A stretch of DNA of 37,917 nucleotides, from the NCBI GenBank assembly GCA_031287685.1, contig JAITSQ010000036.1, positions 1 through 37,917 of the forward strand, read 5' to 3'. The notes beneath the pieces were generated by a model that did not search any database, was not told the DNA's origin, and was given only the letters and a program-made list of their open reading frames with translations. Below, one piece after another: positions 1,237-20,488 of this stretch (within the stretch, counting starts at the first letter, position 1; the number at the start of each line of letters is the position of its first letter). The stretch is from Clostridiales bacterium (GTDB lineage Bacteria > Bacillota > Clostridia > Lachnospirales > WQUN01). Both the position numbers and the translations under genes were made by a program.

Positions 1237-1270
1237 AAACAAGGCGTTTGCTTTGAGAGGGGCAATTTCC

Positions 1271-2380
1271 ATGAAAAAATCTATTCTGAGCAAGACGACC
1301 GCCGCCGCGCTTGGCGCGTTTCTTTTAATCGCGGCGCTTCCCGGATGCTCAGGCGGCGGCGCGGTCAACACCAGCGGCAATACCGCCTCCGCGGACGCGT
1401 CAAACCCAACTCCGGCGGGGGCCGCGAAAGAACCCGCCGCCGCGCCCAAAAGCGTGTCCATCACTAACGTATCCTATGACCCGACCCGCGAGTTATATGA
1501 GCGGTACAATAAACTTTTCCAGGAATACTGGCTTAAGGAAAAAGGGCAGGAGGTCGAAATCACCCAGTCCCACGGCGGTTCAGGCAAGCAGGCGCGCAGC
1601 GTTATAGAGGGCAACGAGGCCGACGTCGTTACGCTTGCCCTTGAGGGCGACGTGGACGAGATACGCAAAGCCGGACTGATTGACGAGGGTTGGGTGAAAC
1701 GCCTTGATAAGGAAAGCGCGCCCTACACCTCCACAATCGTTTTCTTGGTGCGCAAGGGCAATCCTAAGAACATAAAGGACTGGGACGACATCGTAAAATC
1801 CGGCATAGAGGTTATCACGCCCGACCCCAAAAGCTCCGGCGGGGCGCGCTGGAATTTCTTGGCCGCGTGGGCGTTTTCCAATCAGCAAAACGGCGGCGAT
1901 GAAGAAAAAAACAAGGAATTTATGAAGGCGCTGTACTCCAACGTGACGGTGCTTGACTCCGGCGCGCGCGGCTCCACCACCACCTTTGTCGAAAACGGGC
2001 AGGGCGATGTGCTTTTGGCTTGGGAGAACGAAGCGTTCCTTTCCCAAAAAGAGCATCCCGGGGATTTTGAGATTGTGACACCGTCTTTGAGCATTTTAGC
2101 CCAGCCCTCGGTTGCGGTGGTGGACGCCAATGTGAAAAAGCACGGCACGGAGGAAGTCGCCACAGCGTACTTACAGTACCTGTACTCTGACGAGGCTCAG
2201 CGTTTGGAGGGGCAAAACGACTACCGCCCTTCAAATCCGGATATTTTGAAGGAATTTGGCGACACTTTCGACCTGAATATCAAGCTTGTCAACATCGACG
2301 ACGATTTTGGCGGCTGGGAAGCCGCCACGGAGAAATTTTTCGCCGACGGAGCTATTTTCGACCAGATTTACAAGAGGTAA
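1271..2380 (+). CDS. sbp: Sulfate ABC transporter substrate-binding lipoprotein
   Basis: This is the extracellular sulfate (or thiosulfate) receptor of an ABC importer, about 369 residues. The start at 1271 is preferred over an in-frame start at 1253 because the AGAGGGG ribosome binding site (1256-1262) lies between them and a lipoprotein signal begins right at 1271. The signal peptide ends in a lipobox (LPGC, Cys near residue 26), followed by a low-complexity Ala/Gly/Pro linker typical of tethered receptors. The mature part shows the Sbp/CysP pattern: [20 protein letters not shown] near its start, then [26 protein letters not shown] and [16 protein letters not shown]. The permease and ATPase genes follow in the same direction, which supports sulfate uptake. 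Sulfate versus thiosulfate preference cannot be decided from sequence. Confidence 0.92.
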
Positions 2381-2422
2381 AACGGAACCGCTATAAGGAT
2401 TTACGGAAGGGGGGATTTTCGC

Positions 2423-3274
2423 GTGTCAGGCTTGAAAGCTCCGTTTAGACGGCGCGGAAACAATGTCATACCCGGGTTCGGGCTTTCGATGGGCGTAACG
2501 CTGACCATGCTCAGTCTGATTGTTCTTATCCCTCTCGCGTCTGTTTTGTTAGTATTGAGGGACTATTCCTTCGCGGAATTCTGGAGAGTCGTGGCGGATA
2601 AGCAAACCCTCGCCACATATAGAATCAGCCTCTCCTGCGCGGGGATAGCCGCCTGTGTCAATGTCGTTTTCGGGGTTTTGCTGGCGTGGGTTATTACCCG
2701 CTATAAATTCCCGGGCAGGCGGATTTTGGACGGCCTGATTGAGCTGCCCTTCGCGCTCCCCACGGCTGTGGCCGGAATAGCGCTGACGACTCTCTATTCC
2801 GACAAGGGCTGGATTGGTTCTTTGTTTGACAAAATCGGCGTGAAAATTTCCTATACCACAAAAGGGATTACGATTGCCATGATTTTCATCGGAATCCCCT
2901 TTGTGGTTCGTTCCATTCAGCCGGTGCTGGAAAAGCTTGACCCTCAGTATGAGGAGGCCGCCGCCGTGCTGGGCGCCGGGCGCGCGGAGACCTTCTTCCG
3001 CGTGGTGCTTCCCGAGCTTCTGCCCGCCGCGCTCACCGGTTTTGCCCTGGCTTTCGCGCGTTCCGTCGGAGAGTACGGCAGCGTGGTGTTTATCGCCGGG
3101 AATATACCTTATAAAACGCAAATTACGCCGCTGATTATTATGAATAAGCTGGAGCAGTTTAATTACCCCGCGGCGACCTCCATCGCTCTGGTGATGATTG
3201 TTTTCTCTTTCCTCGTTTTATTCGGGATTAACCTTTTGCAGTCTAAAATAAATAAAATCGCGAGGGGGAGCTGA
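2423..3274 (+). CDS. cysT: Sulfate ABC transporter permease CysT (CysU)
   Basis: One of the two membrane subunits of the sulfate importer, 283 residues with about six hydrophobic segments. It starts with GTG at 2423 behind a GGAAGGGGGG ribosome binding site. The cytoplasmic coupling loop that contacts the ATPase is clear around residues 176-200 (EEAAAVLGAGRAETFFRVV, then LPELLPA). Other CysT signatures are IELPFALPTAVAGIALTTLY and the FARSVGEYGSVVFIAGN segment near the C-terminus. The next permease gene begins two bases after its stop, so the subunits are probably made in equal amounts. Confidence 0.93.
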   Translation: MSGLKAPFRRRGNNVIPGFGLSMGVTLTMLSLIVLIPLASVLLVLRDYSFAEFWRVVADKQTLATYRISLSCAGIAACVNVVFGVLLAWVITRYKFPGRRILDGLIELPFALPTAVAGIALTTLYSDKGWIGSLFDKIGVKISYTTKGITIAMIFIGIPFVVRSIQPVLEKLDPQYEEAAAVLGAGRAETFFRVVLPELLPAALTGFALAFARSVGEYGSVVFIAGNIPYKTQITPLIIMNKLEQFNYPAATSIALVMIVFSFLVLFGINLLQSKINKIARGS

Positions 3275-3276
3275 GG

Positions 3277-4086
3277 TTGCGCTCAAAAACGCTTCAAATT
3301 TTTCTGATTTTACTGGGCGTTTTGTTCGTCGCCCTTATGCTGCTTCTGCCGCTTGCCACGGTCCTGGCCTACGCCCTGCGGCAAGGGTGGAGGATTTTCG
3401 CCGCTGCCATAACCGACAATTACGCGGTAAAAGCGCTGAATTTAACCTTGCTCGCCGCCGGAATCACCCTGGTGGTCAACACCACCTTCGGTATTTTCGC
3501 CGCGTGGGCCATCACCAAATTTCGCTTTCGCGGAAAACAGGCGCTTACCACCTTGATAGACATACCGTTTTCAATTTCGCCAATCATAGCGGGACTTGTG
3601 TTTATCCTGATATTCGGGCGTATAGGCTGGGCTTATCCGCTGCTGGAGGCGTGGAAGGTTAAAATTGTGTTCGCCGTTCCGGGAATTGTGCTGGCGACTA
3701 TTTTTGTTACGTTTCCGTTTGTTTCACGCGCTCTGATTCCCTTGATGCAGTCCCAGGGCAGCGACGAGGAGGAAGCGGCGGCGCTTATGGGCGCCAAAGG
3801 GCTTGAAATATTCCGCAAAATCACCTTTCCGCATATCAAATGGGGATTGCTGTACGGCGTCATTCTCTGCACCGCCCGCGCCCTCGGGGAATTTGGCGCG
3901 GTGTCGGTGGTGTCAGGGCATCTGCGCGGAAAAACCAATACCCTGCCGCTCCATGTGGAGATACTGTTCAGCGAGTTCAGACTGACGGCGGCTTTCGCCG
4001 TGGCCTCCGTTTTGGTGGTAATCGCGGTTATCATACTAATTCTTCGGAATATTGTCGAATACCGCCTGAAGAAAGAGGAGGAGTAA
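3277..4086 (+). CDS. cysW: Sulfate ABC transporter permease CysW
   Basis: The second membrane subunit of the sulfate importer, 269 residues, paralogous to CysT. The start is a TTG at 3277, two bases after the cysT stop, which suggests translational coupling. The EAA coupling loop is at about residues 163-190 ([19 protein letters not shown], then [10 protein letters not shown]). The family segments [20 protein letters not shown] and [20 protein letters not shown] are present. It forms the heterodimeric pore with CysT; CysA docks on the cytoplasmic side. Confidence 0.93.
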
Positions 4087-4087
4087 A

Positions 4088-5146
4088 ATGTATGTTGAAT
4101 TGAAAAACCTCAATAAACGTTTCGGCGGCTTTCAGGCGTCAGACAATATAAGTTTCGGCATAGAAAAGGGGAAATTAATCGGCTTGCTCGGCCCCTCCGG
4201 CAGCGGCAAGACGACGATCCTGCGAATGATAGCCGGGCTTGAAACGCCGGATTCAGGAGATATTTTTATCGCCGGGGACAGGGTAAACGATTTGCCCGCC
4301 GCCAAGCGCGGAATCGGCTTTGTGTTTCAAAATTACGCCCTCTTTCGCTATATGACGGTTTTTGACAATATCGCCTTTGGGCTGACGGTGCAGAAAAGAG
4401 ACAAGGAATACATCCGAGGCCGCGTGAGCGAGCTGATTAAGCTTATAGGGCTTGAGAAAATGGAAAAACGCCATCCCCATCAGCTTTCCGGCGGGCAAAG
4501 ACAGCGCGTGGCGTTTGCGCGCGCCTTAGCCCCCAATCCGCATTTATTGCTCTTAGACGAGCCCTTTGCGGCAATCGACGCCAAGGTGCGGAAGGAATTG
4601 CGTTCCTGGCTTCGAGAGACGATTAACAAGGTCGGGATTACGAGTATTTTTGTCACTCACGACCAGGAGGAAGCGGTGGAGGTTGCCGACGAGATAATAA
4701 TCACCAACAGCGGGCGCGTGGAGCAAGTCGGAACGCCTATAGAAATCTATAAAAACCCTAAAACCCACTTTGCGGCAAAGTTTATCGGCGAATCTATTAC
4801 ACTCGCGGATTATGACAAACTGCATGGCTTTGAGAAGGTCAAAGGCTTTGACCGCGCCGTTCTGCGCCCGGAGTTCGTTCATATTACAAAAGTCCAAAAA
4901 GAATTGTATCCTCACGCGTCCCAGCGGGGAATCGTGGAAAATATTTTCTTCAAGGGAAACACGCTGGAGCTGCGCGTGGACTTAGGCGGGCAGAAAATAA
5001 CCGCGTACCAATCGCTGGACGACGCCTCCTTCTCTGTGGGCGAGGAAGTCAGCGTGTTAATTTACCGTCTGTATTTGCTTGGCGAAAACGAAGTGCGGCT
5101 GGAGGAAAACCACTCCATTAAAAGCGAGGGCAGCTTCTTTATCTGA
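4088..5146 (+). CDS. cysA: Sulfate ABC transporter ATP-binding protein CysA
   Basis: The ATPase that powers the importer, 352 residues. Walker A GPSGSGKT is at residues 35-42, the signature LSGGQRQR near 132-139, Walker B LLLLDEP near 153-159, and the switch histidine in FVTHDQEEA near 188-196. The C-terminal 110 residues form the extra regulatory TOBE-type domain expected of CysA/MalK-type ATPases. The gene starts one base after the cysW stop, and its own stop overlaps the next start (TGATG), so the chelatase behind it is part of the same operon. Confidence 0.94.
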
Positions 5147-7566: not shown

Positions 7567-8491
7567 ACAATTTATCCCACAGGTATTCATAGCTTTCCGC
7601 CCAGCGGTCGTTTGGCTTTTGGTGAAACAAATCTTTCGGAAGAAGAATATACCGGTTGTTTTTTACGGCGGACAGATTGCTCCACGCGGGGTCATTTTGC
7701 AAGGTTTCCTCCAGAAGCCGCCTGCTTTTGCTTTCATCTCCCATAGCCACGGCGAAAATAAAATCGGGATCCTCCTTAATAATTATTTCCATGCTCAAAT
7801 CCGCGAGCAAGCTTTCATTCGTATCCGCGATGTTTACACAGCCCATATCCTTTAACATAGCTCCCGCCATAGTGTCGCCGCCTCGCGCGGCTACTTTGCC
7901 CGCCCCGGCGCGGACGAGCAAGACCTTGGGGGAGGGCTTGTCCTTCGCCCTGCCGATAATCTCGTCAATATCGGCGCGAATCCGCTCTCCGTTCCGTTCG
8001 TATAAATCGCTTCGTCCGGTGAGGTCCGTGCAGATTTTGAGCATGGCGAGATAGTCGTCAAAAGTTTCCACCGAAAAGTAAGCCGCCGGAATTCCCGCCG
8101 ACGCGAGAGCCTCCTTCAGCTTAACCTCGGCGGGTATGTCGGCGGAAAGTATTATGAAGCTTGGCCGCAAGGCTAAAATCCGCTCCAGGCTCGGCTCGTG
8201 CAGACCGCCTATATCGGTCACGCCCTCTGTGCCGTCAGAAAAATTGTCCTCGAAAAAATCGCTCGTCGCGCCCAGAAGCTCTCCTCCGGCAAGTATCCAG
8301 ACCCGCGCGAAACTGCCGGAGCAAACGACGGTTCTGCCGCAGTCGGATACCGAAAGGTCATTTCCAAGGGCGTCGGTGAAGGAGGGGGCTTGTATTGGCT
8401 GTGAATCGGGGTTTTCCCTATTGCTCTTTCGCGAACAGGCCGGCAGCAAAACCATCAGGACGACAAGCGCGAGACAAAAAAGCTTCTTCAT
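7559..8491 (-). CDS. Metal-chelate ABC transporter substrate-binding lipoprotein
   Basis: The extracellular receptor of the importer, 310 residues. The signal peptide MKKLFCLALVVLMVLLPAC ends in a lipobox with the anchoring Cys at residue 19. The mature protein has the helical-backbone metal-receptor (FepB/BtuF/TroA-like) layout: DALGNDLSVSDCGRTVVCSG at the start, then DIGGLHEPSLERILALRPSF, and the C-terminal NLSAVKNNRYILLPKDLFHQ. Its ATG overlaps the stop of the LacI-type regulator (ATGA), so the regulator and transporter share a transcript. The ligand is not determinable from sequence. Confidence 0.88.
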   Translation of the reverse strand: MKKLFCLALVVLMVLLPACSRKSNRENPDSQPIQAPSFTDALGNDLSVSDCGRTVVCSGSFARVWILAGGELLGATSDFFEDNFSDGTEGVTDIGGLHEPSLERILALRPSFIILSADIPAEVKLKEALASAGIPAAYFSVETFDDYLAMLKICTDLTGRSDLYERNGERIRADIDEIIGRAKDKPSPKVLLVRAGAGKVAARGGDTMAGAMLKDMGCVNIADTNESLLADLSMEIIIKEDPDFIFAVAMGDESKSRRLLEETLQNDPAWSNLSAVKNNRYILLPKDLFHQKPNDRWAESYEYLWDKLYG

Positions 8492-9700: not shown

Positions 9701-11380
9701 GTGTTGAAGCTTCAGGTGAAACGGCTTTCTACGGATTTTCTGATTATAGGCGGGGGGACGGCGGGCGCTTACGCGGCGCTGACTTTTTGCGAACATTCCG
9801 ACAAGCGGGTTCTGATAGCGGAAAAGGCGAACATCAAGCGGAGCGGGTGTCTCGCCGCCGGGGTCAACGCTCTTAACGCTTATATCGTCCCGGGGAAAAC
9901 GCCTCAGGACTATGTGGATTACGCCAGGGGCGACGCCCACAGCATTGTCCGGGGGGATTTGCTCCTTACCATGGCGGAGGGGCTTAACCGCGTGACCCAT
10001 AAATTAGAGGAGTTAGGGCTGACTATATTAAAAAACCCGGACGGAAGCTACGCCGCCCGAGGAAACCGCAACCTGAAAATAAACGGGGAGAATATCAAAC
10101 CAATATTGGCTGGGGCCGTTTCAAAAGAGCCTCAAATATCCGTGCTTAACCGCGTGAGCGTATTTGAGTATATTGTCCGGGAAAACCGGATTTGCGGCGC
10201 GTATGCCGTCGGCGTGGACGAACCGTCGCTGTACGTTATCTCGGCCAAGGCGGTCCTTTGCGCGGCGGGCGGGGCGGCGGGCCTCTATAAGCCGAACAAT
10301 CCGGGATTTTCCCGCCATAAAATGTGGTATCCCCCCTTTAACACCGGCGCGGCCTGCGCTATGGGAATCCGCGCCGGAGCGGAAATGACGACGCTTGAAA
10401 TGCGTTTTATCGCCTTGCGCTGCAAGGATACCATAGCCCCCACGGGGACTCTGGCGCAAGGAGTCGGCGCGAAGCAGATTAATTCTCTCGGAGAGGTATA
10501 CGAGCAAAAATATGGCGTGACGACCTCCCAGCGCCTTTACGGAACGGTCGTTGAGAATTTGGAGGGGCGGGGGCCGTGTTATTTGCGCACCGCCGGAATA
10601 TCGCGCCAGCAGGACGAGGACTTGCAAAAGGCCTACTTAAATATGGCGCCGAGCCAAACCCTGCGCTGGATTGAAAGCGGCGGCCCGCCGTCCGAGCAAA
10701 ACGTGGAAATTGAAGGCACGGAGCCGTATATCACGGGCGGGCACACCGCTTCCGGCTATTGGGTGGACGCCAACCGGGAAACCACCATACGCGGGCTGTT
10801 CGCCGCGGGCGACGCCGCGGGCGGCTGCCCGCAAAAGTATGTCACCGGGGCGTTTGTCGAGGGTGAGATTGCCGCTAAGGCCGCGCTGAAATACTTGGGC
10901 GACGAGCTGACTGACCCTGGGGACGGCGCCGACAGCGTTAAGGCTCTGTTGGAGGCGCGGCTGGACGCCGCCGCCGATTCTGACGAAATCGACCGTTTGG
11001 AAGAGGAAATGCAGTCGATTATGGACGAGTACGCCGGAGGGATAAGCCGGCATTACCGCTATTCGGAGGAAAGCCTGAAAACAGCCGAGGAGAAAATCCG
11101 CGCGCTTACGGACAGAGTTAACCTTACCAAGGCGAGGGACACGCGAGGGCTTGTTTATATACTGGAGCTTACGGAACGCCTTATCCTCTGCCGGGCGCTG
11201 ATTGCCCACCTTTTGGCAAGGAAGGAAACCCGCTGGCGCGGTTTTGCCGAAAACACGGATTACCCGGATACGAGCGAGGATTTTCTTAAATATGTAAATT
11301 CCCGGTTTAATCCTCATACTGACGAATTTGAGATTATATTCCGGGATTTGGTTGCGGAGGGCGAGATATATGAGCATTGA
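9701..11380 (+). CDS. aprA: Adenylylsulfate (APS) reductase alpha subunit, FAD-binding
   Basis: The flavin subunit that reduces APS to sulfite and AMP, 559 residues. The FAD-binding motif IIGGGTAGAY is at residues 15-24. The SGCLAAGVNALNAYI segment follows, and later ITGGHTASGYWVDANRETT and KYVTGAFVEGEIAAKAAL, all characteristic of the fumarate-reductase-like flavoprotein fold of AprA. It is about 100 residues shorter than the dissimilatory enzyme I know from sulfate reducers, which fits the shorter assimilatory clostridial form. The start is a GTG at 9701 behind GCGGGTG; a TTG one codon later is the alternative. Its end overlaps the start of aprB by 11 bases. Confidence 0.9.
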   Translation: MLKLQVKRLSTDFLIIGGGTAGAYAALTFCEHSDKRVLIAEKANIKRSGCLAAGVNALNAYIVPGKTPQDYVDYARGDAHSIVRGDLLLTMAEGLNRVTHKLEELGLTILKNPDGSYAARGNRNLKINGENIKPILAGAVSKEPQISVLNRVSVFEYIVRENRICGAYAVGVDEPSLYVISAKAVLCAAGGAAGLYKPNNPGFSRHKMWYPPFNTGAACAMGIRAGAEMTTLEMRFIALRCKDTIAPTGTLAQGVGAKQINSLGEVYEQKYGVTTSQRLYGTVVENLEGRGPCYLRTAGISRQQDEDLQKAYLNMAPSQTLRWIESGGPPSEQNVEIEGTEPYITGGHTASGYWVDANRETTIRGLFAAGDAAGGCPQKYVTGAFVEGEIAAKAALKYLGDELTDPGDGADSVKALLEARLDAAADSDEIDRLEEEMQSIMDEYAGGISRHYRYSEESLKTAEEKIRALTDRVNLTKARDTRGLVYILELTERLILCRALIAHLLARKETRWRGFAENTDYPDTSEDFLKYVNSRFNPHTDEFEIIFRDLVAEGEIYEH

Positions 11381-11684
11381 GATAAACCGAGAGGCTTGTG
11401 CCGGCTGCGGGGCGTGTTCCGAGGCTTGCCCCGGAAGCTTGCTCCTGCTTGACGAGAAGGGCAAGGCCGCTATCCCCAAGCCGGAACGCTGCTGGGGCTG
11501 TGTTTCCTGCGTCAAGGAGTGCCCCGCGCGAGCCATAGAGTTTTTTTTGGGCGCGGATATGGGCGGAAGGGGCGGAAGAATGAGCGTCCGCCGCGAAGCT
11601 TCTATGCTTCATTGGGATATAAGAAAGCCTGGCGGCGGGCTTAAAACCATCACCGTGGACAGCGGGGACGCCAATAAATATTGA
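11370..11684 (+). CDS. aprB: APS reductase beta subunit (2x[4Fe-4S] ferredoxin)
   Basis: The electron-delivering partner of AprA, 104 residues. It has two classic cluster motifs: cysteines 10, 13, 16 and 20 ([11 protein letters not shown]) and cysteines 41, 44, 47 and 51 ([11 protein letters not shown]). The ATG at 11370 was chosen because it has a GGAGG ribosome binding site inside the end of aprA, while the open frame upstream is not family-like. The C-terminal tail (about 45 residues) is shorter than in dissimilatory AprB. It is followed 16 bases later by cysD. Confidence 0.88.
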
Positions 11685-11700: not shown

Positions 11701-12597
11701 ATGCCGCAAACACAGTTGGATAAGCTTGAGGCCGAGGCCCTTTACATATTCCGTGAGGTCGCTTCTGAGTGCGAACGCCCGGTGATGCTCTATTCCGTCG
11801 GCAAGGACAGCTCAGTTATGCTTCATTTGGCGATGAAAGCGTTTTATCCCGAGAAGCCGCCTTTTCCGTTCTTGCACATCGATACGGGCTGGAAATTCAA
11901 GGAGATGATAGAGTTTCGCGACAGACGGGCGAAGGAATTGGGACTTGATATGCTTGTATACAGAAACGAGGCCGCCCTTGCGGAGGGAATCAATCCCTTT
12001 GACCACGGGGCGGCGTATACCGACATAATGAAAACCCAGGCCCTGAAGGACGCGCTGACCAAATACGGCTTTACCGCCGCGTTCGGCGGCGGGCGGCGCG
12101 ACGAGGAAAAATCCCGCGCCAAGGAGCGGATTTTCTCCTTCCGCAACGAGAACCACGCGTGGGACCCCAAAAATCAACGCCCGGAAATGTGGAAACTTTA
12201 CAACACAAAGCTCCGCAAAGGCGAAAGTATACGCGTTTTCCCTATTTCCAACTGGACGGAAAAAGACGTCTGGCAGTACATCGAAAGAGAGAACATCCCA
12301 ATTGTGCCGCTGTATTTCGCGAAGGAACGCCCCGTGGTCGAGCGCGACGGCAACATCATCATGGTTGACGACGGCCGTCTGCGCCTTGCCCCCGGGGAGC
12401 TTCCGCAAATGAAAAAGGTTCGTTTCCGCACGCTGGGCTGTTATCCGCTCACGGGCGGCGTGCTTTCGGAGGCGGACACGCTTCCCGCCGTTATCGCCGA
12501 AGCTCTTTCGGCGGTTACGAGCGAGCGGACCAGCCGCGTGATTGACAAGGAAGCCTCCGGAAGTATGGAACGCCGCAAGCGGGAGGGGTATTTTTAA
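11701..12597 (+). CDS. cysD: Sulfate adenylyltransferase subunit 2 (ATP sulfurylase small subunit)
   Basis: The catalytic subunit that activates sulfate with ATP to make APS, 298 residues. The PP-loop ATP-pyrophosphatase motif SVGKDSSVM is at residues 32-40. The family blocks [58 protein letters not shown] and [14 protein letters not shown] are all present. A GAGAGGGGGG ribosome binding site precedes the ATG. The stop overlaps the cysN start (TAATG), as is usual for the obligate heterodimer. Confidence 0.96.
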
Positions 12598-14213
12598 TGA
12601 CGAAAGCCTCTGAAAACGGATTGCTCAAATTCATTACCTGCGGAAGCGTCGACGACGGGAAATCCACGCTCCTCGGGCATATTTTATACGACTCCAAGCT
12701 GCTTTTCGCCGACCAGGAGCAAGCCCTTATTTTAGACAGCCAAGTCGGCAGCCGGCGCGGCGAGATAGACTATTCCCTGCTGTTAGACGGGCTTATGGCC
12801 GAAAGGGAGCAGGGAATCACGATTGACGTGGCCTACCGGTATTTTGCGACAAGCAAGCGGAGCTTTATAGCGGCGGACACGCCCGGACACGAGGAATACA
12901 CCCGAAACATGGCGGTGGGCGCTTCCTTCGCGGATCTGGCGGTGATTTTGGTGGACGCGTCCCGGGGCGTTTTGACGCAAACCCGCCGGCACGCCCGAAT
13001 CTGCGCCTTAATGGGGATCAGACATTTTGTGTTCGCCGTGAACAAGATGGATTTGGAGGCTTACAGCGAAGAAACTTTCCGGGCTGTTTCAGCCGGCATA
13101 AACGCCCTCAGCGGGGAGCTTGGCTTGGAAAATGTCGTCGCCATTCCGGTTTCCGCCACGGAAGGCGACAACGTGACGGAGCTTTCCTGCCGCATGAAAT
13201 GGTACGAAGGCCCGACCCTGCTCGGATTTTTAGAAACCGCGGACATTTCCGGCGCGTCGCCTGAAGAAGGCTTTTATATGCCCGTTCAGCGCGTATGCCG
13301 CCCGGATCACACCTTCAGGGGCTTCCAGGGGCAGATAGAAGCCGGAAGGGTCGGCGCTGGGGACCTGCTGACGGCGCTCCCCAGCGGCGAAATCGCCCTT
13401 GTAAAGTCAATTTATCTCGCGGACAAAAAGGTGGAAAGCGCTTTTGTCGGCCAGCCCGTGACGCTTCAGCTCGACCGTGAGGTAGATGTTTCTCGAGGGT
13501 GCGTATTGGCGCGGAACGCGGGGCTCAAAACGGAAAAGTCGTTTTTCGCGTCCCTGCTTTGGATGGACGACCAAAAACTGATTCCCGGCAAAGACTATTG
13601 GGTGAAGGTCGCGACTAAGCTGCTTCCCGCGATTGTCACCGGTATTCGCCACAAGGTGGACGTCAACAGCGGCGAACTGACGGCGGCCGATTCAATAGGC
13701 AAAAATGAAATTGTTGAGTGTGAGCTTGTCCTGTCGGAACCGGCTGTATTGAGCGAGTTTCGCTCGCATAAGGGCCTGGGGGGGCTTATCCTGATTGACA
13801 GGGTATCCCACGCCACCTCGGCCTGCGGAGTGATAACCTCGGCGGGAAAACAAGCCGGAACCGGGGTTTATTTAAACGACGGCGAACACAGCCTGCAGGT
13901 TTCGCTTTTTGACGGCTTCCTCTACCACCCGGATATTCACGCCATACTGCGGCACAGCCCCAATCCGGCCATATATAAGCCGGGGGACGCTTTGCCCTTG
14001 AGGGAAGCCGGTCTTGCCTATCCGAGCGATTTTGACGTCGCTTCTGATTTTGGTTTCGCCAATGTCCGTAACGGCGTTTTTACCGGGTTCGGAGCAAGAG
14101 AGCCGAGGTATGCCCTGCTGGATCCGAGAGGTCTGGATTTGGACATCCCCCCTCCCAGAGATTTTACAAAATATCGTAAAATCAGCGTTTGGGAGAAGGA
14201 TTATGAGATTTGA
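12597..14213 (+). CDS. cysN: Sulfate adenylyltransferase subunit 1 (GTPase)
   Basis: The EF-Tu-like GTPase that drives APS formation by CysD, 538 residues. GTPase motifs are G1 GSVDDGKST (residues 16-24), G3 DTPGHEEYT (near 94), and G4 NKMD (near 149). The EF-Tu-like beta-barrel domains follow. There is no C-terminal APS kinase (CysC) domain, which agrees with the neighbouring AprAB using APS directly instead of PAPS. The last 100 residues go beyond the minimal CysN core and I cannot assign them a role. Confidence 0.95.
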   Translation: MTKASENGLLKFITCGSVDDGKSTLLGHILYDSKLLFADQEQALILDSQVGSRRGEIDYSLLLDGLMAEREQGITIDVAYRYFATSKRSFIAADTPGHEEYTRNMAVGASFADLAVILVDASRGVLTQTRRHARICALMGIRHFVFAVNKMDLEAYSEETFRAVSAGINALSGELGLENVVAIPVSATEGDNVTELSCRMKWYEGPTLLGFLETADISGASPEEGFYMPVQRVCRPDHTFRGFQGQIEAGRVGAGDLLTALPSGEIALVKSIYLADKKVESAFVGQPVTLQLDREVDVSRGCVLARNAGLKTEKSFFASLLWMDDQKLIPGKDYWVKVATKLLPAIVTGIRHKVDVNSGELTAADSIGKNEIVECELVLSEPAVLSEFRSHKGLGGLILIDRVSHATSACGVITSAGKQAGTGVYLNDGEHSLQVSLFDGFLYHPDIHAILRHSPNPAIYKPGDALPLREAGLAYPSDFDVASDFGFANVRNGVFTGFGAREPRYALLDPRGLDLDIPPPRDFTKYRKISVWEKDYEI

Positions 14214-14234: not shown

Positions 14235-15107
14235 ATGGCTGTTGATTACAAAGCCCTCAAAGACGGGGGATTTATGCGTCAGACGCAAAAGAACCATTTT
14301 TCCCTGAGGCTGAAGGCGATAGGAGGGAACTTCACCGCCGAACAGCTTTCGACCATTGCCGAAATCAGCAAAACCTTCGGCTGCGGGCAGGTTCATCTCA
14401 CCTCGCGGCAAGGAATTGAGATTCCGTTTATCAAGTTAGACGACGTGGATAAGGTAAAGGCGGAGCTTGAGGCGGGCGGCGTGTACACGGGCGTGTGCGG
14501 ACCCCGCGTGCGAACCGTGACCGCCTGTCAGGGCGCGGAAATCTGCCCCTCCGGCTGTATTGACACATATCCGCTGGCGCTTGAAATATCCGATCGTTAT
14601 TTTGGCCGCGAACTGCCCCATAAATTCAAATTCGGGGTGACCGGCTGTATGAACAACTGCCTCAAGGCCGAAGAGAATGATTTGGGCATAAAAGGCGGGT
14701 ATACCATAGAATGGATTAAGGAAGCGTGCACCCTGTGCGGAGTATGCGCCAAAGCCTGCCGGGAAGGGGCGATCGCCCAAACCGAGAGTGAAATTCTGCT
14801 GGACGAAACCAAATGCAGTAACTGCGGACGCTGTGTCAAATCCTGCCCCTTTGACGCGTGGAGGGGCGAACCGGGCTATATTCTCTCTTTCGGGGGAACC
14901 TTCGGGAACCTGATTGCCAAAGGGGAGCCGGTTCTGCCCATTCTCCGTGACAAGGACGCGCTGTTCCGCGCCGCTGACGCGGCCCTTGCTTTCTTTGATA
15001 AATACGCGAAGCCCGGCGAGCGTTTCCGCGTGACTATAGAGCGGGCGGGCTGGGAGGCTTTTAGACAGACTCTTGAAACGGAAATGGAGGCGGCTTATAA
15101 TGGCTGA
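14235..15107 (+). CDS. Small assimilatory sulfite reductase (AsrC-like, siroheme + ferredoxin clusters)
   Basis: A 290-residue reductase that should convert sulfite to sulfide. The siroheme/[4Fe-4S] ligands are visible as TACQGAEICPSG (C-x5-C, about residues 96-102) and GVTGCMNNC (C-x3-C, about 138-142). Two ferredoxin-type clusters follow inside the same chain: CTLCGVCAKAC and CSNCGRCVKSCP. The N-terminal domain carries the substrate-site pattern GQVHLTSRQGIEIPFI. This compact architecture matches AsrC/small clostridial sulfite reductases rather than the 550-residue CysI. The ATG at 14235 is preferred over a GTG nine bases upstream because GGGAGC sits at the right distance. It overlaps the next gene by 8 bases. 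Confidence 0.85.
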   Translation: MAVDYKALKDGGFMRQTQKNHFSLRLKAIGGNFTAEQLSTIAEISKTFGCGQVHLTSRQGIEIPFIKLDDVDKVKAELEAGGVYTGVCGPRVRTVTACQGAEICPSGCIDTYPLALEISDRYFGRELPHKFKFGVTGCMNNCLKAEENDLGIKGGYTIEWIKEACTLCGVCAKACREGAIAQTESEILLDETKCSNCGRCVKSCPFDAWRGEPGYILSFGGTFGNLIAKGEPVLPILRDKDALFRAADAALAFFDKYAKPGERFRVTIERAGWEAFRQTLETEMEAAYNG

Positions 15108-15345
15108 TTTTCAAATTGACGCGGAGGCGGACATAACCGACGTTGTGTGTCCTGTTACTTTTGTGAAGGCTAAGGTCGCGCTGGAGGAATTGGAGGACGG
15201 GCAAATTATCTCTATCCGCATAAATGACGGCGAGCCTGTACAAAACGTGCCCCGGAGCCTTAAGGAGGAAGGGCATCAAATTTTGAAGCTTTCGGCTAAC
15301 GGCGACGAAACCTATAATCTTATTGTAAGAAAGGTTGGGGAATAA
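15100..15345 (+). CDS. TusA-like sulfur carrier/sulfurtransferase
   Basis: An 81-residue protein of the TusA (SirA) fold. The catalytic cysteine lies in DVVCPVTFVKAKVALEEL (Cys 17), matching the TusA position, but the usual CPxP motif reads CPVT, so the second proline is lost. The ATG at 15100 lies inside the end of the sulfite reductase gene behind GGAGGCGG. Its place between sulfite reductase and the ThiS-like carrier suggests it takes sulfide or persulfide from the reductase and hands it on. That handover is inference from gene order. Confidence 0.78.
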   Translation: MADFQIDAEADITDVVCPVTFVKAKVALEELEDGQIISIRINDGEPVQNVPRSLKEEGHQILKLSANGDETYNLIVRKVGE

Positions 15346-15346
15346 A

Positions 15347-15553
15347 ATGAAGCTTACGGTATCGGGAAATGTAAAAGAATACGCCGGCGGTTTGACCGTG
15401 AGGAAGCTCCTTGAGCTTGAGCAAGTGGAAACGCCGGAATATGTCACGGTTTCCGTCAATGACGAATTTATCCCGACTGGAGATTTTGACACGGCGGCGC
15501 TGAGCGACGGCGACAGCGTGGAATTTCTGTACTTCATGGGAGGCGGGCGCTGA
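15347..15553 (+). CDS. hcyS: ThiS/MoaD-like sulfur carrier protein with blocked C-terminus (HcyS-like)
   Basis: A 68-residue beta-grasp (ubiquitin-like) sulfur carrier. It matches ThiS in size and in the SVNDEFIP and LSDGDSVEFLYFMGGG segments. The active end of such carriers is a free Gly-Gly; this one ends GGGR, with an arginine still to be removed before adenylation. The ATG at 15347 overlaps nothing essential upstream; an in-frame TTG at 15335 is less likely. The MoeB-like activating enzyme starts at its stop codon (TGATG). With the JAMM protease two genes on, this recalls HcyS of Wolinella succinogenes, which is made with an extra C-terminal alanine. It is unlikely to be thiamine ThiS because no thiG or thiH is present. 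Confidence 0.8.
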   Translation: MKLTVSGNVKEYAGGLTVRKLLELEQVETPEYVTVSVNDEFIPTGDFDTAALSDGDSVEFLYFMGGGR

Positions 15554-16365
15554 TGGCTTTCACAAACGAACAACTGGAGCGTTATTCCCGCCACATTATT
15601 TTGAGCGAGGTCGGCGTTAAGGGACAAAAACAACTTCTGCAAAGCAAGGTTCTTATCATAGGGGCGGGGGGCTTGGGCGCGCCCGCCGCGCTGTACCTTG
15701 CCGCGGCGGGGGTCGGGACAATCGGAATCGCCGACGCGGACTCGGTGGATTTATCCAATCTGCAAAGGCAGGTTATTCATACTACGCCCGACGTGGGCAA
15801 GGCCAAGACGCAATCCGCGAAAGAAACTATGGAGGCTATTAACCCGGATATAACTGTCAACACCTATCACACCTTCGTAACGGCTCGAAATATCCCGGAA
15901 CTTATCGCCGGTTATGATTTTATAATTGACGGAACGGATAATTTCCCCGCGAAGTTTTTGATTAACGACGCCTGCGTGCTGGCGAAAAAGCCGTTTTCCC
16001 ACGCGGGCATAATTCGCTTCAAGGGACAGCTCTTGACCTACGCTCCCGATAAAGGGCCGTGCTACCGCTGCGTGTTCAAGGAACCGCCGCCGCCCGAGGC
16101 CGTTCCGACCTGCAGGCAGGCGGGGGTTATCGGCGCTATGGGCGGTGTAATCGGCTCTCTGCAAGCTATGGAAGCTATTAAATACATCATCGGCAAAGGT
16201 GAACTGCTGACCGGGTATCTCCTCACCTATGACGCTTTGAAAATGGAATTTAGAAAAATCAAGCTGCCCGGAAACGATTCCTGCCCTGTTTGCGGGAAAA
16301 ACCCTTCTATTCTTGAGCCGTTTGATTATGAGCAGACGGCGTGCGATTTGAAAGGCGGCCATTAA
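15553..16365 (+). CDS. hcyF: ThiF/MoeB/HesA-family carrier-adenylating enzyme (HcyF-like)
   Basis: An E1-like enzyme that adenylates the C-terminus of the ThiS-like carrier, 270 residues. The nucleotide-binding loop VLIIGAGGLGAPAALYLA is at residues 33-50, and the conserved DADSVDLSNLQRQ at 61-73. Two zinc pairs are visible: CYRC in the middle and CPVC near the C-terminus. A conserved cysteine sits in VPTCRQAGV near residue 187. No rhodanese domain is present, so sulfur must come from elsewhere, plausibly the TusA-like protein or free sulfide. Overlaps with both neighbours tie it to the carrier and the protease. Confidence 0.88.
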   Translation: MAFTNEQLERYSRHIILSEVGVKGQKQLLQSKVLIIGAGGLGAPAALYLAAAGVGTIGIADADSVDLSNLQRQVIHTTPDVGKAKTQSAKETMEAINPDITVNTYHTFVTARNIPELIAGYDFIIDGTDNFPAKFLINDACVLAKKPFSHAGIIRFKGQLLTYAPDKGPCYRCVFKEPPPPEAVPTCRQAGVIGAMGGVIGSLQAMEAIKYIIGKGELLTGYLLTYDALKMEFRKIKLPGNDSCPVCGKNPSILEPFDYEQTACDLKGGH

Positions 16366-16776
16366 ATGGTGATTAAAATAAAACAAGCGGACTATGAGGC
16401 TATTGCCGCCCACGCGAGGTCGGCGCTGCCAAAGGAAGCCTGCGGCCTGATTGCCGGGCGCGACGAGGGCGATACCCGCGTAATCGAAAAGGTGTACTTG
16501 CTCACCAACGCAGACCAAAGCCGGGAGCATTTTTCCATTGACCCCAAGGAGCAGCTCGCGGCAATAAAGGATATGCGCAAAGACGGTCTGAACCCGCTGG
16601 GCAATTTTCATTCCCATCCCGAAACGCCCGCCAGACCGTCAGAGGAAGATATCCGCCTGGCCCTTGACGCCAAGGCAAGCTATCTTATTCTTTCATTGGC
16701 GGAAAATTCGCCGGTGCTGAAAGCGTTTAGTATTGAGAAAGGGGCGGTTATCAGCGTCCCTTTGGAGGTGGGGTAA
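16366..16776 (+). CDS. hcyD: JAMM/MPN+ zinc metalloprotease (HcyD/Mec+-like)
   Basis: A 136-residue JAMM-fold protease with a complete active site: Glu 24 (PKEACGLIAG), His 82 and His 84 (FHSHPETPARPSEED), Ser 92 and Asp 95. Bacterial stand-alone JAMM proteins next to ThiS-like carriers cut residues from the carrier C-terminus and can release the amino acid made on it. The ATG follows the stop of the adenylating enzyme directly. It is the last gene of the sulfur operon; the convergent thiE ends only a few bases beyond, and I see no strong terminator between them. Confidence 0.87.
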   Translation: MVIKIKQADYEAIAAHARSALPKEACGLIAGRDEGDTRVIEKVYLLTNADQSREHFSIDPKEQLAAIKDMRKDGLNPLGNFHSHPETPARPSEEDIRLALDAKASYLILSLAENSPVLKAFSIEKGAVISVPLEVG

Positions 16777-16784
16777 AAAGGGGA

Positions 16785-17435
16785 TTATAGGTTTGTCAAC
16801 CGCGCCTTCACCTTTACAAAAAGCTCTTTTATCTCACGGGCGGCGGCGGTAATGTCAGTTTGAGCTATAATCGCCGACACAACCGCGATTCCGCCAACGC
16901 CCGTTCCTAAAAAACCCGGGATTGTCTCCTTGTTAATCCCGCCTATTACGACAAGCGGCAAATTTGTCGCCGCGCGAATTTTTGTCAGCTCTTCAAAAGA
17001 AACCACAGCGGCGTCGGTTTTGGTGTTTGTGGCGTACATCGCTCCGACGCCGAGGTAGTCCGCGCCTAGGCGTTCCGCTTCTTTCGCCTCCGCGAGGCCG
17101 CTGACCGAAACGCCGATTATTTTGTCCTCGCCAATAATACTCCGCGCCGCGTCGGGCGGCAAATCGCGCTGACCAATATGCGCTCCGTCCGCGTTTACGG
17201 CTATCGCTATATCAAGACGGTCGTTGATAATGAGCGGAACGCCGTGTTTTCGCGTTATCTCGCGTACTCTTAGGGCGGTATTGTAAAACTCGCGAGAGGA
17301 CGCTGTTTTCTCGCGAAGCTGTACGGCAGTCACGCCGCCGAGAAGCGCTAGTTCCACGGATTCCTCCACCGTCGCCGTGGTCATAAGCTCGCTGTCCGTG
17401 ACAAGGTACAAAGAGTAATCAATTTCAGGCTTCAC
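16785..17435 (-). CDS. thiE: Thiamine-phosphate synthase ThiE
   Basis: Joins the pyrimidine (HMP-PP) and thiazole phosphate halves of thiamine, 216 residues. Diagnostic blocks are AVQLREKTASSREFYNTAL, INDRLDIAIAVNADGAHIGQ, GADYLGVGAMYATNTK and LPLVVIGGI. It is last in the minus-strand thi operon and overlaps the end of thiM by 11 bases. Confidence 0.95.
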   Translation of the reverse strand: MKPEIDYSLYLVTDSELMTTATVEESVELALLGGVTAVQLREKTASSREFYNTALRVREITRKHGVPLIINDRLDIAIAVNADGAHIGQRDLPPDAARSIIGEDKIIGVSVSGLAEAKEAERLGADYLGVGAMYATNTKTDAAVVSFEELTKIRAATNLPLVVIGGINKETIPGFLGTGVGGIAVVSAIIAQTDITAAAREIKELFVKVKARLTNL

Positions 17436-18234
17436 TTAGTTTCGCCTTCTTTTCAAGCGTGGCCGCGTCCAATTTGCTGATCGCGTCGTGCAAGGCCGCG
17501 CGGAAGCTGCCGTTGCCCAATTCTCCCGCTTTTTCATAAGCTATTTCGCCCGCGATTCCCATTGATAAAACGGCACATACCGCCGCTTCAAAGGGTGCGC
17601 GCGGAGACGCTCCGACAAACGCGCCGACGAGCGACGTGCACATACAACCGGTACCTGTCAAATTGGCAAGCATAGAGTGTCCGTTTTTGATTAAAGCGGT
17701 TTTTTCGCCGTCCGAAACAATGTCGGTCGCGCCCGTTATCGCAATCACACAGTCTAATCTTTTGGCAAGCGATTTGGCGATATTTTGCCCATCAGCGGAA
17801 TCAATATCGCCCTCGCCCGCGTCAACGCCCTTTGTTTCGGATTTAAGCCCGGCGATATATTTTATTTCGGAAATATTTCCGCGAATCACCGCAAATTTTA
17901 CTTCTGATATCAACGCCGCCGCCGTTTCATTGCGATACGCGGACGCGCCCGCCCCGACCGGGTCAAACACAACCGGCGCTCCGGCGAGGTTCGCGGCTTT
18001 ACCCGCGATAAGCATTGACCGCGCCGTTCGGGGGTTGAGCGTTCCCATATTCAGCACGACCGCTTGAGAAATTCCGGCTATGTCCGCCGCCTCCTCGTTC
18101 GCGTCCGCCATAATCGGAGAGGCGCCGATGCCGAGCGTGACGTTGGCGCAATCGTTTACGGTGACATAGTTTGTAATGTGGTGAACAAGCGGTTTTTTTG
18201 CTCTCACTTTTTCGATTAAATTGAAAATTTTCAT
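17425..18234 (-). CDS. thiM: Hydroxyethylthiazole kinase ThiM
   Basis: Phosphorylates the thiazole alcohol so it can be joined by ThiE, 269 residues. Family segments PLVHHITNYVTVNDCANVTL, VVFDPVGAGASAYRN and NLTGTGCMCTSLVGAF (active-site region) are intact. It starts behind AGGAGGAAT. It is a salvage enzyme; with no thiG, thiH or thiO in view, the locus seems built to use preformed thiazole. A gap of about 150 bases with a GC-rich palindrome separates it from thiD. Confidence 0.95.
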   Translation of the reverse strand: MKIFNLIEKVRAKKPLVHHITNYVTVNDCANVTLGIGASPIMADANEEAADIAGISQAVVLNMGTLNPRTARSMLIAGKAANLAGAPVVFDPVGAGASAYRNETAAALISEVKFAVIRGNISEIKYIAGLKSETKGVDAGEGDIDSADGQNIAKSLAKRLDCVIAITGATDIVSDGEKTALIKNGHSMLANLTGTGCMCTSLVGAFVGASPRAPFEAAVCAVLSMGIAGEIAYEKAGELGNGSFRAALHDAISKLDAATLEKKAKLSEA

Positions 18235-18384
18235 TCGATATTCCTCCTGTTTTATACTAATTCCATTTTCACAACGCTCTTTGTTCGCTCAAAACGCAAA
18301 AACCGCGCCGAGAATAAATCCGGACGCGCCGCAGGCGCGGCGTTTCGCTTCGCTCCAAACAGCGTGTTCAAACCGGAATTCGTA

Positions 18385-19173
18385 TTAGTTGTCAAAAAAC
18401 TTGTAAAAATGATTTGTGGGGCCATTTCCTTTGCCAAGCGGCAGCGCGTGCCGAATAGCCTCTGTGACATATTCCTTCGCCATTTCCACCGTTTTTTCCA
18501 ATGTCAATCCCAAAGCAAGGTTCGCGGCAATCGCGGAGGAAAACGTACAGCCTGTTCCGTGAGTGTTTTTTGTGTCAATTCGCCGCGCCGTAAAACTGTA
18601 AAACTCGCTTCCGTCATACAATATGTCGGCCGCGTCGCCAGCGGAGTGACCGCCTTTGACAAGCGCGGCGCGGCAGCCCATTTCGCGGATAATTTTCGCG
18701 GCTTTTTTCATATCCTCCCGCGTTTCAATTTTGATTCCCGCCATTTTTTCAGCCTCGGGAATATTAGGCGTAATCAAGTCCGCAAGCGGGACAATCTCTG
18801 AAATCAGCGTCTCTATTGCTTCCGGGTTCATTAAAGCGCTGCCGTTTTTCGCGTACATAACAGGGTCGATAACCACGTTCGCGGGTTTATATTCTTTCAG
18901 TTTATCGGCGACAATCAGCATTGTTTCGCGGTTTGACAGCATACCGATTTTGACGGAAGCCGGAACAATATCCTCGAACACCGCGTCAATCTGTTTCGCT
19001 ATCATATCGGGGCGGACGTCCTGATATTCAATCACGCGGAACGTATTTTCGGCGACGACAGACGTTATAACACTCATTCCGAAAACCCCGTGAGCCGAAA
19101 AAGTTTTCAAATCGGCCTGAATCCCCGCTCCGCCGCCGCAATCGGAGCCTGCTATCGTTAACGCTGTTTTCAT
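18385..19173 (-). CDS. thiD: Hydroxymethylpyrimidine (phosphate) kinase ThiD
   Basis: Phosphorylates HMP and HMP-P to HMP-PP, 262 residues. Signature segments are ALTIAGSDCGGGAGIQADLK at the N-terminus, VVIDPVMYAKNGSAL, DLITPNIPEAEKM and NTHGTGCTFSSAIAANLA with the catalytic region near the C-terminus. It follows thiC by 10 bases, so the two pyrimidine steps are co-expressed under the TPP riboswitch. Confidence 0.96.
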   Translation of the reverse strand: MKTALTIAGSDCGGGAGIQADLKTFSAHGVFGMSVITSVVAENTFRVIEYQDVRPDMIAKQIDAVFEDIVPASVKIGMLSNRETMLIVADKLKEYKPANVVIDPVMYAKNGSALMNPEAIETLISEIVPLADLITPNIPEAEKMAGIKIETREDMKKAAKIIREMGCRAALVKGGHSAGDAADILYDGSEFYSFTARRIDTKNTHGTGCTFSSAIAANLALGLTLEKTVEMAKEYVTEAIRHALPLGKGNGPTNHFYKFFDN

Positions 19174-19183
19174 CGAAATCCTC

Positions 19184-20488
19184 CTATTTTGCCGTAACCT
19201 TTTCGCCGTTCAGGATTAAATTCATATTACGCATGGCGCAGAATTTCCCGCACATTGTGCAGGTATCCGCACACTCCGGAGCGGATTCCTCGTGCGTTTT
19301 CCGGGCGTTGTCGGGGTCAAGCGAAAGGCTGTACATTTTCTCCCAGTCAACCGCCTGCCGCGCTTTTGACATCTCATTGTCCCGGTCGGCGGCGCGAGGG
19401 ATATTCTTGGCTAAATCAGCGGCGTGAGCGGCGATTTTGGCGGCGATAATCCCGTCGCGAACGTCTTGTTCATTTGGCAGACGCAGATGTTCGGCGGGCG
19501 TGACATAGCACAAGAACGCCGCTCCGTTTGCCGCCGCGACCGCGCCGCCTATCGCGGCGGTGATATGATCGTAGCCCGGCGCGATATCCGTTACCAGCGG
19601 ACCCAGAACGTAGTACGGCGCGCCGTGACAAAGCGTGCGCTCAAGCTCCATATTGGCGGCGATTTTGTCAAGTGTCATATGCCCGGGACCTTCGATAATC
19701 ACTTGCACATCTTGCTCCCAAGCGGTTTTTGTAAGTTCCCCGAGAGTTATCATTTCCTCAATTTGCGCCGCGTCGTTGGCGTCATTGGTAGACCCTGGGC
19801 GGCAGGCGTCGCCCAAACTTAATGTCACGTCATACTTCCGGCAAATCGCTAAAAGCTCGTCAAAGCGCTCATAAAACGGATTTTCCCTGCCCGTCATCTC
19901 CATCCACGCGAACATAAGCGAGCCGCCGCGCGAAACGATATTGGTAAGTCTGTTGCGGTTTCGCTTGAAGCGGGCGGCGGTAGCTCTGTTCATTCCGCAA
20001 TGGATTGTCATAAAATCCATGCCGTCCTCGGCGTGTATCCGCGCGATATTAAGCCACTCGTCCGATGTGATTTTTTCTAAATCCTTATCGTAATAAACAA
20101 GCGCGTCATAAATCGGCACACTTCCGAGCGCGGCTTTGCAAGTTTCAGCGAGTTTTCTCCGAAACGCTCTCGTATCTCCAACTGTTGACAAATCCATAAT
20201 CGCGTCCGCGCCGAATTTTTCCGCTTCGGCAACCTTGGAGAGTTCAACGTCAAAATTCGCGCAGTCCTTCGAGACTCCCAAATTGACGTTTATTTTAGTG
20301 GATAACGCCCTGCCGATTGCTTTCGGGCAGCCGCGTTCGTGATTGACGTTTTTGGGTATAACCGCTTGACCGCCAGCAATCAGCTGACGCAGCTCGTCCG
20401 CCGCGATATACTCGTCCGCGGCGGCGATTTCGATTTCCGGCGTGATAATTCCACGTCGCGCGGCTTCCATTTGCGTTTGATAGTCCAT
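19184..20488 (-). CDS. thiC: Phosphomethylpyrimidine synthase ThiC
   Basis: The radical-SAM enzyme that rearranges aminoimidazole ribotide to HMP-P, 434 residues, the usual length of the bacterial form without an N-terminal extension. Family blocks include [11 protein letters not shown]-like [51 protein letters not shown] and [12 protein letters not shown]. The C-terminal cluster motif [11 protein letters not shown] is complete. An AGGAGG ribosome binding site precedes the ATG. The gene is first behind the TPP riboswitch. Confidence 0.97.

Follow-up and report, generated by a model that had tools for sequence, protein, structure and literature searches.

The window analysed here, meaning the whole stretch of 37,917 nucleotides (contig JAITSQ010000036.1 of the Clostridiales bacterium assembly GCA_031287685.1), carries a small TusA-like gene lodged between the genes for a siroheme sulfite reductase (SiR) and a ThiS-type sulfur carrier, and its product has CPVT where the canonical motif is CPxP. 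The locus raises the question of where such a protein obtains its sulfur, from the reductase beside it or from a cysteine desulfurase, and of what the replacement of the second proline signifies. The genes of the window which bear on this are as follows:

1253..5146, forward strand: sulfate ABC transporter (binding protein, CysT, CysW and ATPase)
5811-8491, reverse strand: Fe/heme/B12-like ABC transporter (ATPase, permease and IsdE-like binding protein, all below model cut-offs)
9701..11380, forward strand: AprA, APS reductase flavoprotein
11370..11684, forward strand: AprB-like APS reductase ferredoxin subunit (E 4e-16, below model cut-off)
11701..12597, forward strand: CysD, ATP sulfurylase small subunit
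12597..14213, forward strand: CysN, ATP sulfurylase large subunit
14235..15107, forward strand: small SiR of 290 aa, an Fsr-C/AsrC-like Dsr-LP with two extra 4Fe-4S motifs
15100..15345, forward strand: tusA-like gene, 81 aa, CPVT at residues 17-20, single Cys17
15347..15553, forward strand: ThiS-type sulfur carrier, C-terminus MGGGR with an extra residue past the glycines
15553..16365, forward strand: E1-like ThiF/MoeB adenylyltransferase, 270 aa, without a rhodanese domain
16366..16776, forward strand: JAMM (Prok-JAB) metalloprotease
16785-20488, reverse strand: thiE, thiM, thiD and thiC, all above NCBIfam cut-offs

The window protein is a genuine member of the TusA family. It matches Pfam PF01206 with 65.1 bits (gathering cut-off 28.6, E 5e-18), and the predicted model (mean pLDDT 82) has the two-layer α/β TusA fold, with the solved TusA structures 1jdq, 8j4c, 1dcj, 3hz7 and 3lvj included amongst the best Foldseek matches. 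The open reading frame begins with M1 at 15100, ends with a stop at 15343-15345, and has one cysteine in 81 residues, within C17-P18-V19-T20; the cysteine and first proline are kept and the canonical CPxP is absent. The original prediction of a TusA-like protein at 15100-15345, with the catalytic cysteine kept and the second proline replaced by threonine, was correct in coordinates, frame and motif. It had also described the gene as overlapping the sulfite reductase and preceding the carrier, which is borne out by an 8 nt overlap, the tusA start preceding the SiR stop (15105-15107), and by a gap of one base between the tusA stop and the carrier ATG. A GGAGG sequence is found 9 nt 5′ of the tusA start, within the SiR gene. 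The CPVT TusA is the sole PF01206 match above the family cut-off in the genome (1.88 Mb, 97% complete).

The type of operon is already known. That of the window unites the carrier, the E1 without rhodanese, JAMM, SirA/TusA and SiR, and corresponds to operon row 4e of Iyer, Burroughs and Aravind (2006), which in the available part of that paper shares a ThiS/MoaD-like carrier, JAB, an E1 without rhodanese, SirA (= TusA), sulfite reductase, ATP sulfurylase and O-acetylhomoserine sulfhydrylase (PMC1779556). Row 4e operons occur in Wolinella, Geobacter, Chlorobium and Pyrobaculum. Iyer and colleagues report that the E1 of the sulfate-assimilation operons always lacks the rhodanese domain and that SirA, for which a rhodanese-like role was predicted, is always in the neighbourhood. 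The same part of the paper mentions no motif, clade or SiR–TusA fusion for row 4e and leaves the SiR-to-TusA step unnamed (PMC1779556), and no description of such a fusion or of a CPxT/CPxN motif was found in the open-access literature. What is added to it here is the threonine or asparagine (T/N) signature as the mark of a clade, the reductase–TusA fusions, and the contrast with a desulfurase-linked gene group.

The genes of the window can be read as a pathway running from sulfate uptake through ATP sulfurylase, APS reductase, SiR and TusA to the ubiquitin-like carrier. The sulfate ABC transporter, which is not contiguous with the operon, is likely to be the upstream supply. The Fe/heme/B12-like ABC transporter sits between this transporter and the sulfur operon. 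We rejected a thiazole role for the carrier, despite thiE, thiM, thiD and thiC next door, because no ThiG was found in the genome (97% complete), which makes it unlikely that the carrier serves thiazole synthesis; with these four genes present and ThiG absent, thiazole is probably salvaged and not synthesised. Two strong PF01053 enzymes are encoded on contig C15, unlinked to the window, of which one (and only one) is MetY-like (TIGR01326 448.8 bits, cut-off 495.1); the second resembles cystathionine lyases/synthases more closely.

The exchange of proline for threonine is shared with a large group of relatives. Searching species genomes with six relatives as queries indicated at least 555 encoded relatives, of which 80 were kept, and in these together with ten loci from the window's order the fourth motif position was threonine in 90/90 cases (CPVT 53, CPTT 29, CPIT 4, CPLT 3 and CPMT 1; a gene may be counted more than once amongst the loci, as seems to be so for L042 and L074). 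The control set comprised all 95 PF01206 matches in 146 genomes of the order, which had CPxP in 80 cases, CPxT in 11 and CPxN in four. In the tree of these sequences, which like the second tree below is based on few columns with unsettled bootstraps and long-branch warnings, the 15 T/N proteins were placed on one side of one branch (support 100/98) with the four CPxN proteins grouped inside it (99/97). The second tree was made with the motif column removed and included 104 of 259 sequences (all of the N and unlinked T sequences, with the rest part-sampled at random); here P and T/N were separated by two changes, and three unlinked CPMP sequences were placed beside unlinked CPYT and CPVT sequences within the wider branch. 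In both trees the CPxT proteins form a branch with the SiR-linked members and are not scattered. With threonine in 90/90 relatives and the T/N sequences on one side of a branch, we rejected the possibility that CPVT is a random or sequencing variant. Just one of the 80 CPxP domains of the order lies within 20 kb of a NIR_SIR gene on the same contig (tables compared by eye), in a long frame some 9 kb away in G041, and the TusA adjoining that SiR has CPLT. Sixteen plasmid records were matched, all at <60% identity (27–36% in the rows listed), and no close plasmid-borne member was seen amongst them.

The motif is also associated with physical linkage to SiR, counting a TusA gene as near when it was on the same strand and <4 kb away. 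Amongst 182 TusA hits in 175 loci, 119 CPxT and four CPxN were near SiR, 18 CPxN were in one ORF with a reductase, and 13 T/N and 28 CPxP had no SiR near (111, 4, 18, 12 and 28 of 173, respectively, when identical cores were merged). SiR-linked hits were therefore T/N in 141 cases and P in none, 0/28 CPxP hits were near SiR, and T or N was present in 123/123 SiR-adjacent hits in the stretches examined, noting that the linkage profiles were built from T/N proteins and may miss a distant CPxP TusA beside SiR, whereas the Pfam-based order control is without that bias. Of 123 adjacent SiR–TusA gene pairs, 101 overlap or abut. All 137 SiR-linked rows that were aligned have F or Y after T/N, and most have GEP where the E. 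coli protein has PAT. A divergent CPMT TusA (76 aa) overlaps a 424-aa SiR in L330, L365 and L366, where the gene order is ThiS–ThiF–SiR–TusA–MetY. In these three loci the T is retained and the GEP loop lost.

In 18 loci a single ORF encodes a siroheme nitrite/sulfite reductase followed by another segment and by a C-terminal TusA which is always CPxN (761–816 aa in 16/18, the other two being cut at contig ends). In the L264 fusion, two Pfam NIR_SIR domains are followed by a segment that matches no Pfam family and then by TusA; its reductase is nearest to NirA and CysI and scores best as NirA-type, below every NCBIfam cut-off. Because the fused reductase has carrier, JAB, MetY, CysK or AprA genes beside it, we take its substrate to be sulfite, an assignment that depends on gene context. 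In the six fusions inspected, TusA is preceded by a long, charged linker that might be likened to a swinging arm. Cys550 of the L264 protein, a non-cluster cysteine in a G-E-C motif between the reductase and TusA, is invariant in 18/18 fusions; the same motif is present in both TusA-less Bacteroidota reductases examined (L379 and L380), and this residue was set aside as a relay cysteine and kept as a lead only.

Co-occurrence was examined in a phylum sample of 398 genomes, in which a profile search gave matches in 99; 15 of these, all low-scoring, were left unread and the other 17 non-T/N genomes had CPxP where read. A NIR_SIR gene was present in 65/67 T/N genomes and in 93/331 others (Fisher p 5e-28, uncorrected for phylogeny and with the 15 unread genomes scored as non-T/N; the motifs in G424, G232 and G267 having been read later). 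A SiR-family gene was likewise present in 14/14 T/N genomes of the order sample, and T/N TusA thus co-occurs with a reductase in both samples. The two computational checks set out with the original prediction, on branching and on co-occurrence, therefore came out in its favour. Operon walks were possible in 133/152 T/N loci and encountered SiR or the fused reductase in 120, MetY in 71, a thioredoxin in 52 and CysK in 43. The dedicated thioredoxins would fit a persulfide or acyl-disulfide step which needs reduction. Sporobacter termitidis and Ruminococcus callidus (loci L105 and L079) are amongst the cultured anaerobes that have the operon.

The SiR of the window has the Pfam domains NIR_SIR, NIR_SIR_ferr and Fer4 (twice), and possesses the siroheme–4Fe4S motif plus two further 4Fe-4S motifs by which group III Dsr-LP / Fsr-C / AsrC proteins are defined in the available part of PMC3448663. 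The closest PDB entry is 7np8 (E 8e-40), and the AsrC model gives 132.7 bits, below its cut-off of 324. In an alignment read by eye the window SiR matches Fsr at 5/5 active-site Arg/Lys positions (R24, R57, R92, K129 and K131, with R57 aligned to Fsr Arg388), and its cluster cysteines, C97-X5-C103 and C137-X3-C141, have the CX5C + CX3C arrangement of Fsr. The DsrAB-type features, a CXnCCX3C cluster and Thr for the aSir Arg, are absent from the window SiR. Fsr with these features is held, in the part of PMC10229431 available, to take sulfite to sulfide without intermediates, and the active-site residues of the window SiR are those of an assimilatory, sulfide-releasing enzyme. An Fsr-like SiR means that TusA would intercept sulfur before full reduction, use sulfide plus an oxidant, or act at the carrier only, and of these three options we favour interception, to which the fusions point.

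The explanation we prefer is that, in assimilatory sulfate reduction, the CPVT TusA would be a dedicated sulfur-transfer subunit linking SiR to a protein-thiocarboxylate carrier, and, taken as a whole, we see this as evenly poised between right and wrong. Sulfate would enter, be activated by CysDN and converted to sulfite by AprAB, and then be reduced by SiR, and Cys17 would take up the sulfur at or near SiR, possibly in direct contact with it and most likely as a persulfide. The sulfur of Cys17 would be passed to the E1-adenylated ThiS-like carrier, with TusA in place of the E1 rhodanese domain, and JAMM would trim the extra C-terminal residue(s) of the carrier and probably later free the amino acid built on it by MetY or CysK. 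Carriers have residue(s) after GG in 117/126 cases, lack GG near the end in 8/126, and end in GG in 1/126 (L304, a thiamine-type locus); tails past GG are expected if JAMM matures the carrier, as is reportedly the case for HcyS-Ala/HcyD of Wolinella. The CPVT TusA probably hands newly reduced sulfur to an amino-acid-making carrier, and a dedicated SiR–carrier sulfur relay is well supported as a module by the T/N branch, SiR adjacency, fusions, co-occurrence and the contrast with the desulfurase-linked group. A more demanding proposal is that an assimilatory SiR passes sulfur to the fused or translationally coupled CPx[T/N] TusA without release of sulfide, the sulfur remaining protein-bound as far as homocysteine or cysteine; this we advance tentatively, with its chances a little short of even. 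If true, a DsrC-like hand-over of product would have evolved separately in assimilation, with Thr/Asn for the second Pro as its signature.

One alternative would place TusA on the carrier side only, where it would replace the E1 rhodanese domain, load from free sulfide or a low-molecular persulfide and never touch SiR, the linkage reflecting no more than one pathway in one operon. The assimilatory, sulfide-releasing type of active site in SiR agrees with this, as does the linkage of the T/N hits, which are near or fused to SiR in 141/154 cases, near ThiF or ThiS in 141/154 and linked to both in 132/154; because they are as often linked to carrier genes, the motif is not assignable to SiR contact. 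G358 and G489, whose genomes are 98–99% complete, have CPxT proteins and no SiR gene at all; these proteins are without the GEP loop and are placed in a side branch with CPMP sequences, and that of G358 is a CPYT TusA beside ThiF, JAB, ThiS and CysK. G136 and G075 have SiR on another contig, and their three carrier loci retain CPVT TusA with MetY- and CysK-like genes and, in 2/3 of them, a thioredoxin-like gene. A window-type SiR may also be found without its usual partner, as in G098, where it lies beside CysD and CysN with no T/N TusA and no JAB, and in G051, which has no TusA match and one weak JAB match:

6348-7217 of L362 (G051): orphan small SiR, close to the window SiR and from a genome of the same family

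This gene lies downstream of a sensor/response-regulator-like ORF (by eye). G139 shares its genus with G098 and has a SiR of similar length, which was left out of the SiR tree.

We rejected the simple statement that T/N is found only with SiR, given 13 hits without SiR near, two genomes without SiR and three CPMP sequences in a neighbouring branch, and equally the statement that a SiR of window type needs TusA, as the G051 and G098 reductases fall amongst the linked ones and neither genome has a T/N TusA. Because of these natural losses in G098, G051 and G358, TusA seems to belong to the combination of SiR plus carrier and not to SiR alone. The prediction that the relay receives its sulfur from the siroheme reductase stands in so far as the fusions support a physical link; counted against direct transfer are the Fsr-like, sulfide-releasing residues of SiR, the equal linkage to the carrier, the two CPxT genomes without SiR (G358 and G489), and a window-type SiR without TusA (G051). 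Confinement of TusA to the carrier side is in turn opposed by the 18 natural reductase–TusA fusions and by the overlap or abutment of 101/123 SiR–TusA pairs. Sulfide forms no persulfide without an oxidant; the S(0) required for a persulfide is not supplied by free sulfide. On this evidence we regard a carrier-only role as possible but unlikely.

A second alternative is that Thr/Asn is a neutral marker of lineage with no bearing on the donor, capping helix 1 as the second Pro would, and this is compatible with the other readings. Threonine and asparagine are good helix caps as well, and the swap from Pro to either may therefore be structurally mild. Helix 1 of the predicted model begins at V19-T20 and has T20 in its first turn, and CPxP is proposed as the helix 1 cap in the available part of PMC11073785. 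Few independent events are involved (the two changes between P and T/N noted above). Against neutrality, P was found in 0/141 SiR-linked hits, which include the divergent protein of L330, and the three CPMP sequences of the wider branch are unlinked; we consider it doubtful that the residue is neutral.

The remaining alternative is a canonical TusA role, in which a persulfide would be received from a cysteine desulfurase and passed to the E1 and carrier, SiR being merely a neighbour. The fold and family agree with this, and at least one cysteine desulfurase is encoded in the genome, within a separate gene group:

63476-69892 of contig C15 (G000; L138, L374 and L378), all on one strand: sulfur-transfer gene group

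The C15 group consists of a serine acetyltransferase (CysE), an encapsulin-cargo-type cysteine desulfurase, a family 2A encapsulin shell, an E1-rhodanese (404-aa frame), JAMM and CysM, and no ThiS-type carrier or TusA was found in the stretches of it examined (a short gap between two loci lies outside these). The arrangement is similar to row 4c in the paper by Iyer and colleagues (PMC1779556). In the same genome, then, the desulfurase-linked E1 has a rhodanese domain, and in contrast the SiR-linked E1 has none but is accompanied by the CPVT TusA. The ThiF ORFs in T/N loci are 250–299 aa in 128/143 cases, which is too short for an added rhodanese domain, and five are >330 aa.

The residues by which E. 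coli TusA contacts IscS include M24, R27, R31, F55 and F58 (PMC2854127, available part). At M24, R27, R31 and F58 the window protein has V, K, E and E, respectively, the K retaining the charge of R27. The SiR-linked rows have K for R27 in 134/137, E, D, S or A and never a basic residue for R31 in 137/137, S for F55 in 134/137, and mostly E/D or a small residue for F58. As a test of docking this is weak because the CPxP controls also mostly lack E. coli-type interface residues, and it suggests a distinct surface of the SiR-linked TusA proteins rather than a proven loss of desulfurase docking. That the sulfur would not come from a cysteine desulfurase, as had been predicted, is made plausible by the missing docking residues and by the separate desulfurase/E1-rhodanese group, and is weakened by the controls. 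With a NifS-like desulfurase gene in 3/133 operon walks (by eye) against SiR or a fused reductase in 120/133, a reversed charge at R31, a desulfurase-linked group that uses E1-rhodanese and no TusA, and a cost in cysteine, spent to make cysteine or homocysteine, that would defeat a sulfate-assimilation operon, we consider the canonical role improbable.

The dedicated transfer from SiR through TusA to the carrier which we prefer can be compared with several known systems. Krishnamoorthy and Begley (2011) reportedly described a HcyS/HcyD/HcyF plus MetY pathway to methionine in Wolinella succinogenes which uses a protein thiocarboxylate and has a carrier with an extra residue after GG, a JAMM protease, an E1, SiR and MetY; the window operon is alike in its tailed carrier, JAMM, E1 and SiR. 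In that pathway Sir-derived sulfide is said to attack the carrier adenylate directly, and TusA is not known to have a role in it. DsrC with DsrAB is alike in concept, in that a siroheme reductase passes its sulfur to a small cysteine protein, but DsrC is unrelated to TusA, and DsrB has CXnCCX3C where the window SiR has CX5C...CX3C. E. coli TusA (1DCJ and 3LVJ) shares the fold (TM 0.83 to 1DCJ) and the N-terminal Cys-Pro, and differs in having CPEP and in the IscS-docking residues, which are not kept in the window protein. YeeD/TsuB is the nearest solved sequence by single-sequence search (1JDQ by profile), and here too a member of the TusA family serves a single partner, to which it is sometimes fused (PMC11073785); its motif is CPxP, however, and the partner, YeeE/TsuA, transports thiosulfate across the membrane.

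In the known role of TusA, its cysteine accepts sulfur from the desulfurase IscS. The CPx[T/N] branch is large, with at least 555 relatives of the window protein, and its sequence signature points to another genetic context. From the samples used here we suggest as an annotation rule that CPx[TN]F plus GEPxxNVP indicates a sulfite-reductase/carrier module. For the thiocarboxylate route to amino acids, a passage of sulfur from SiR to carrier without free sulfide becomes testable. We note that two distinct CPxT TusA genes share one gene cluster (L283, L322), and that a CPYT TusA lies at a contig end (L282, 3342-3581) beside a permease-like ORF (a phosphate/sulfate permease by eye).
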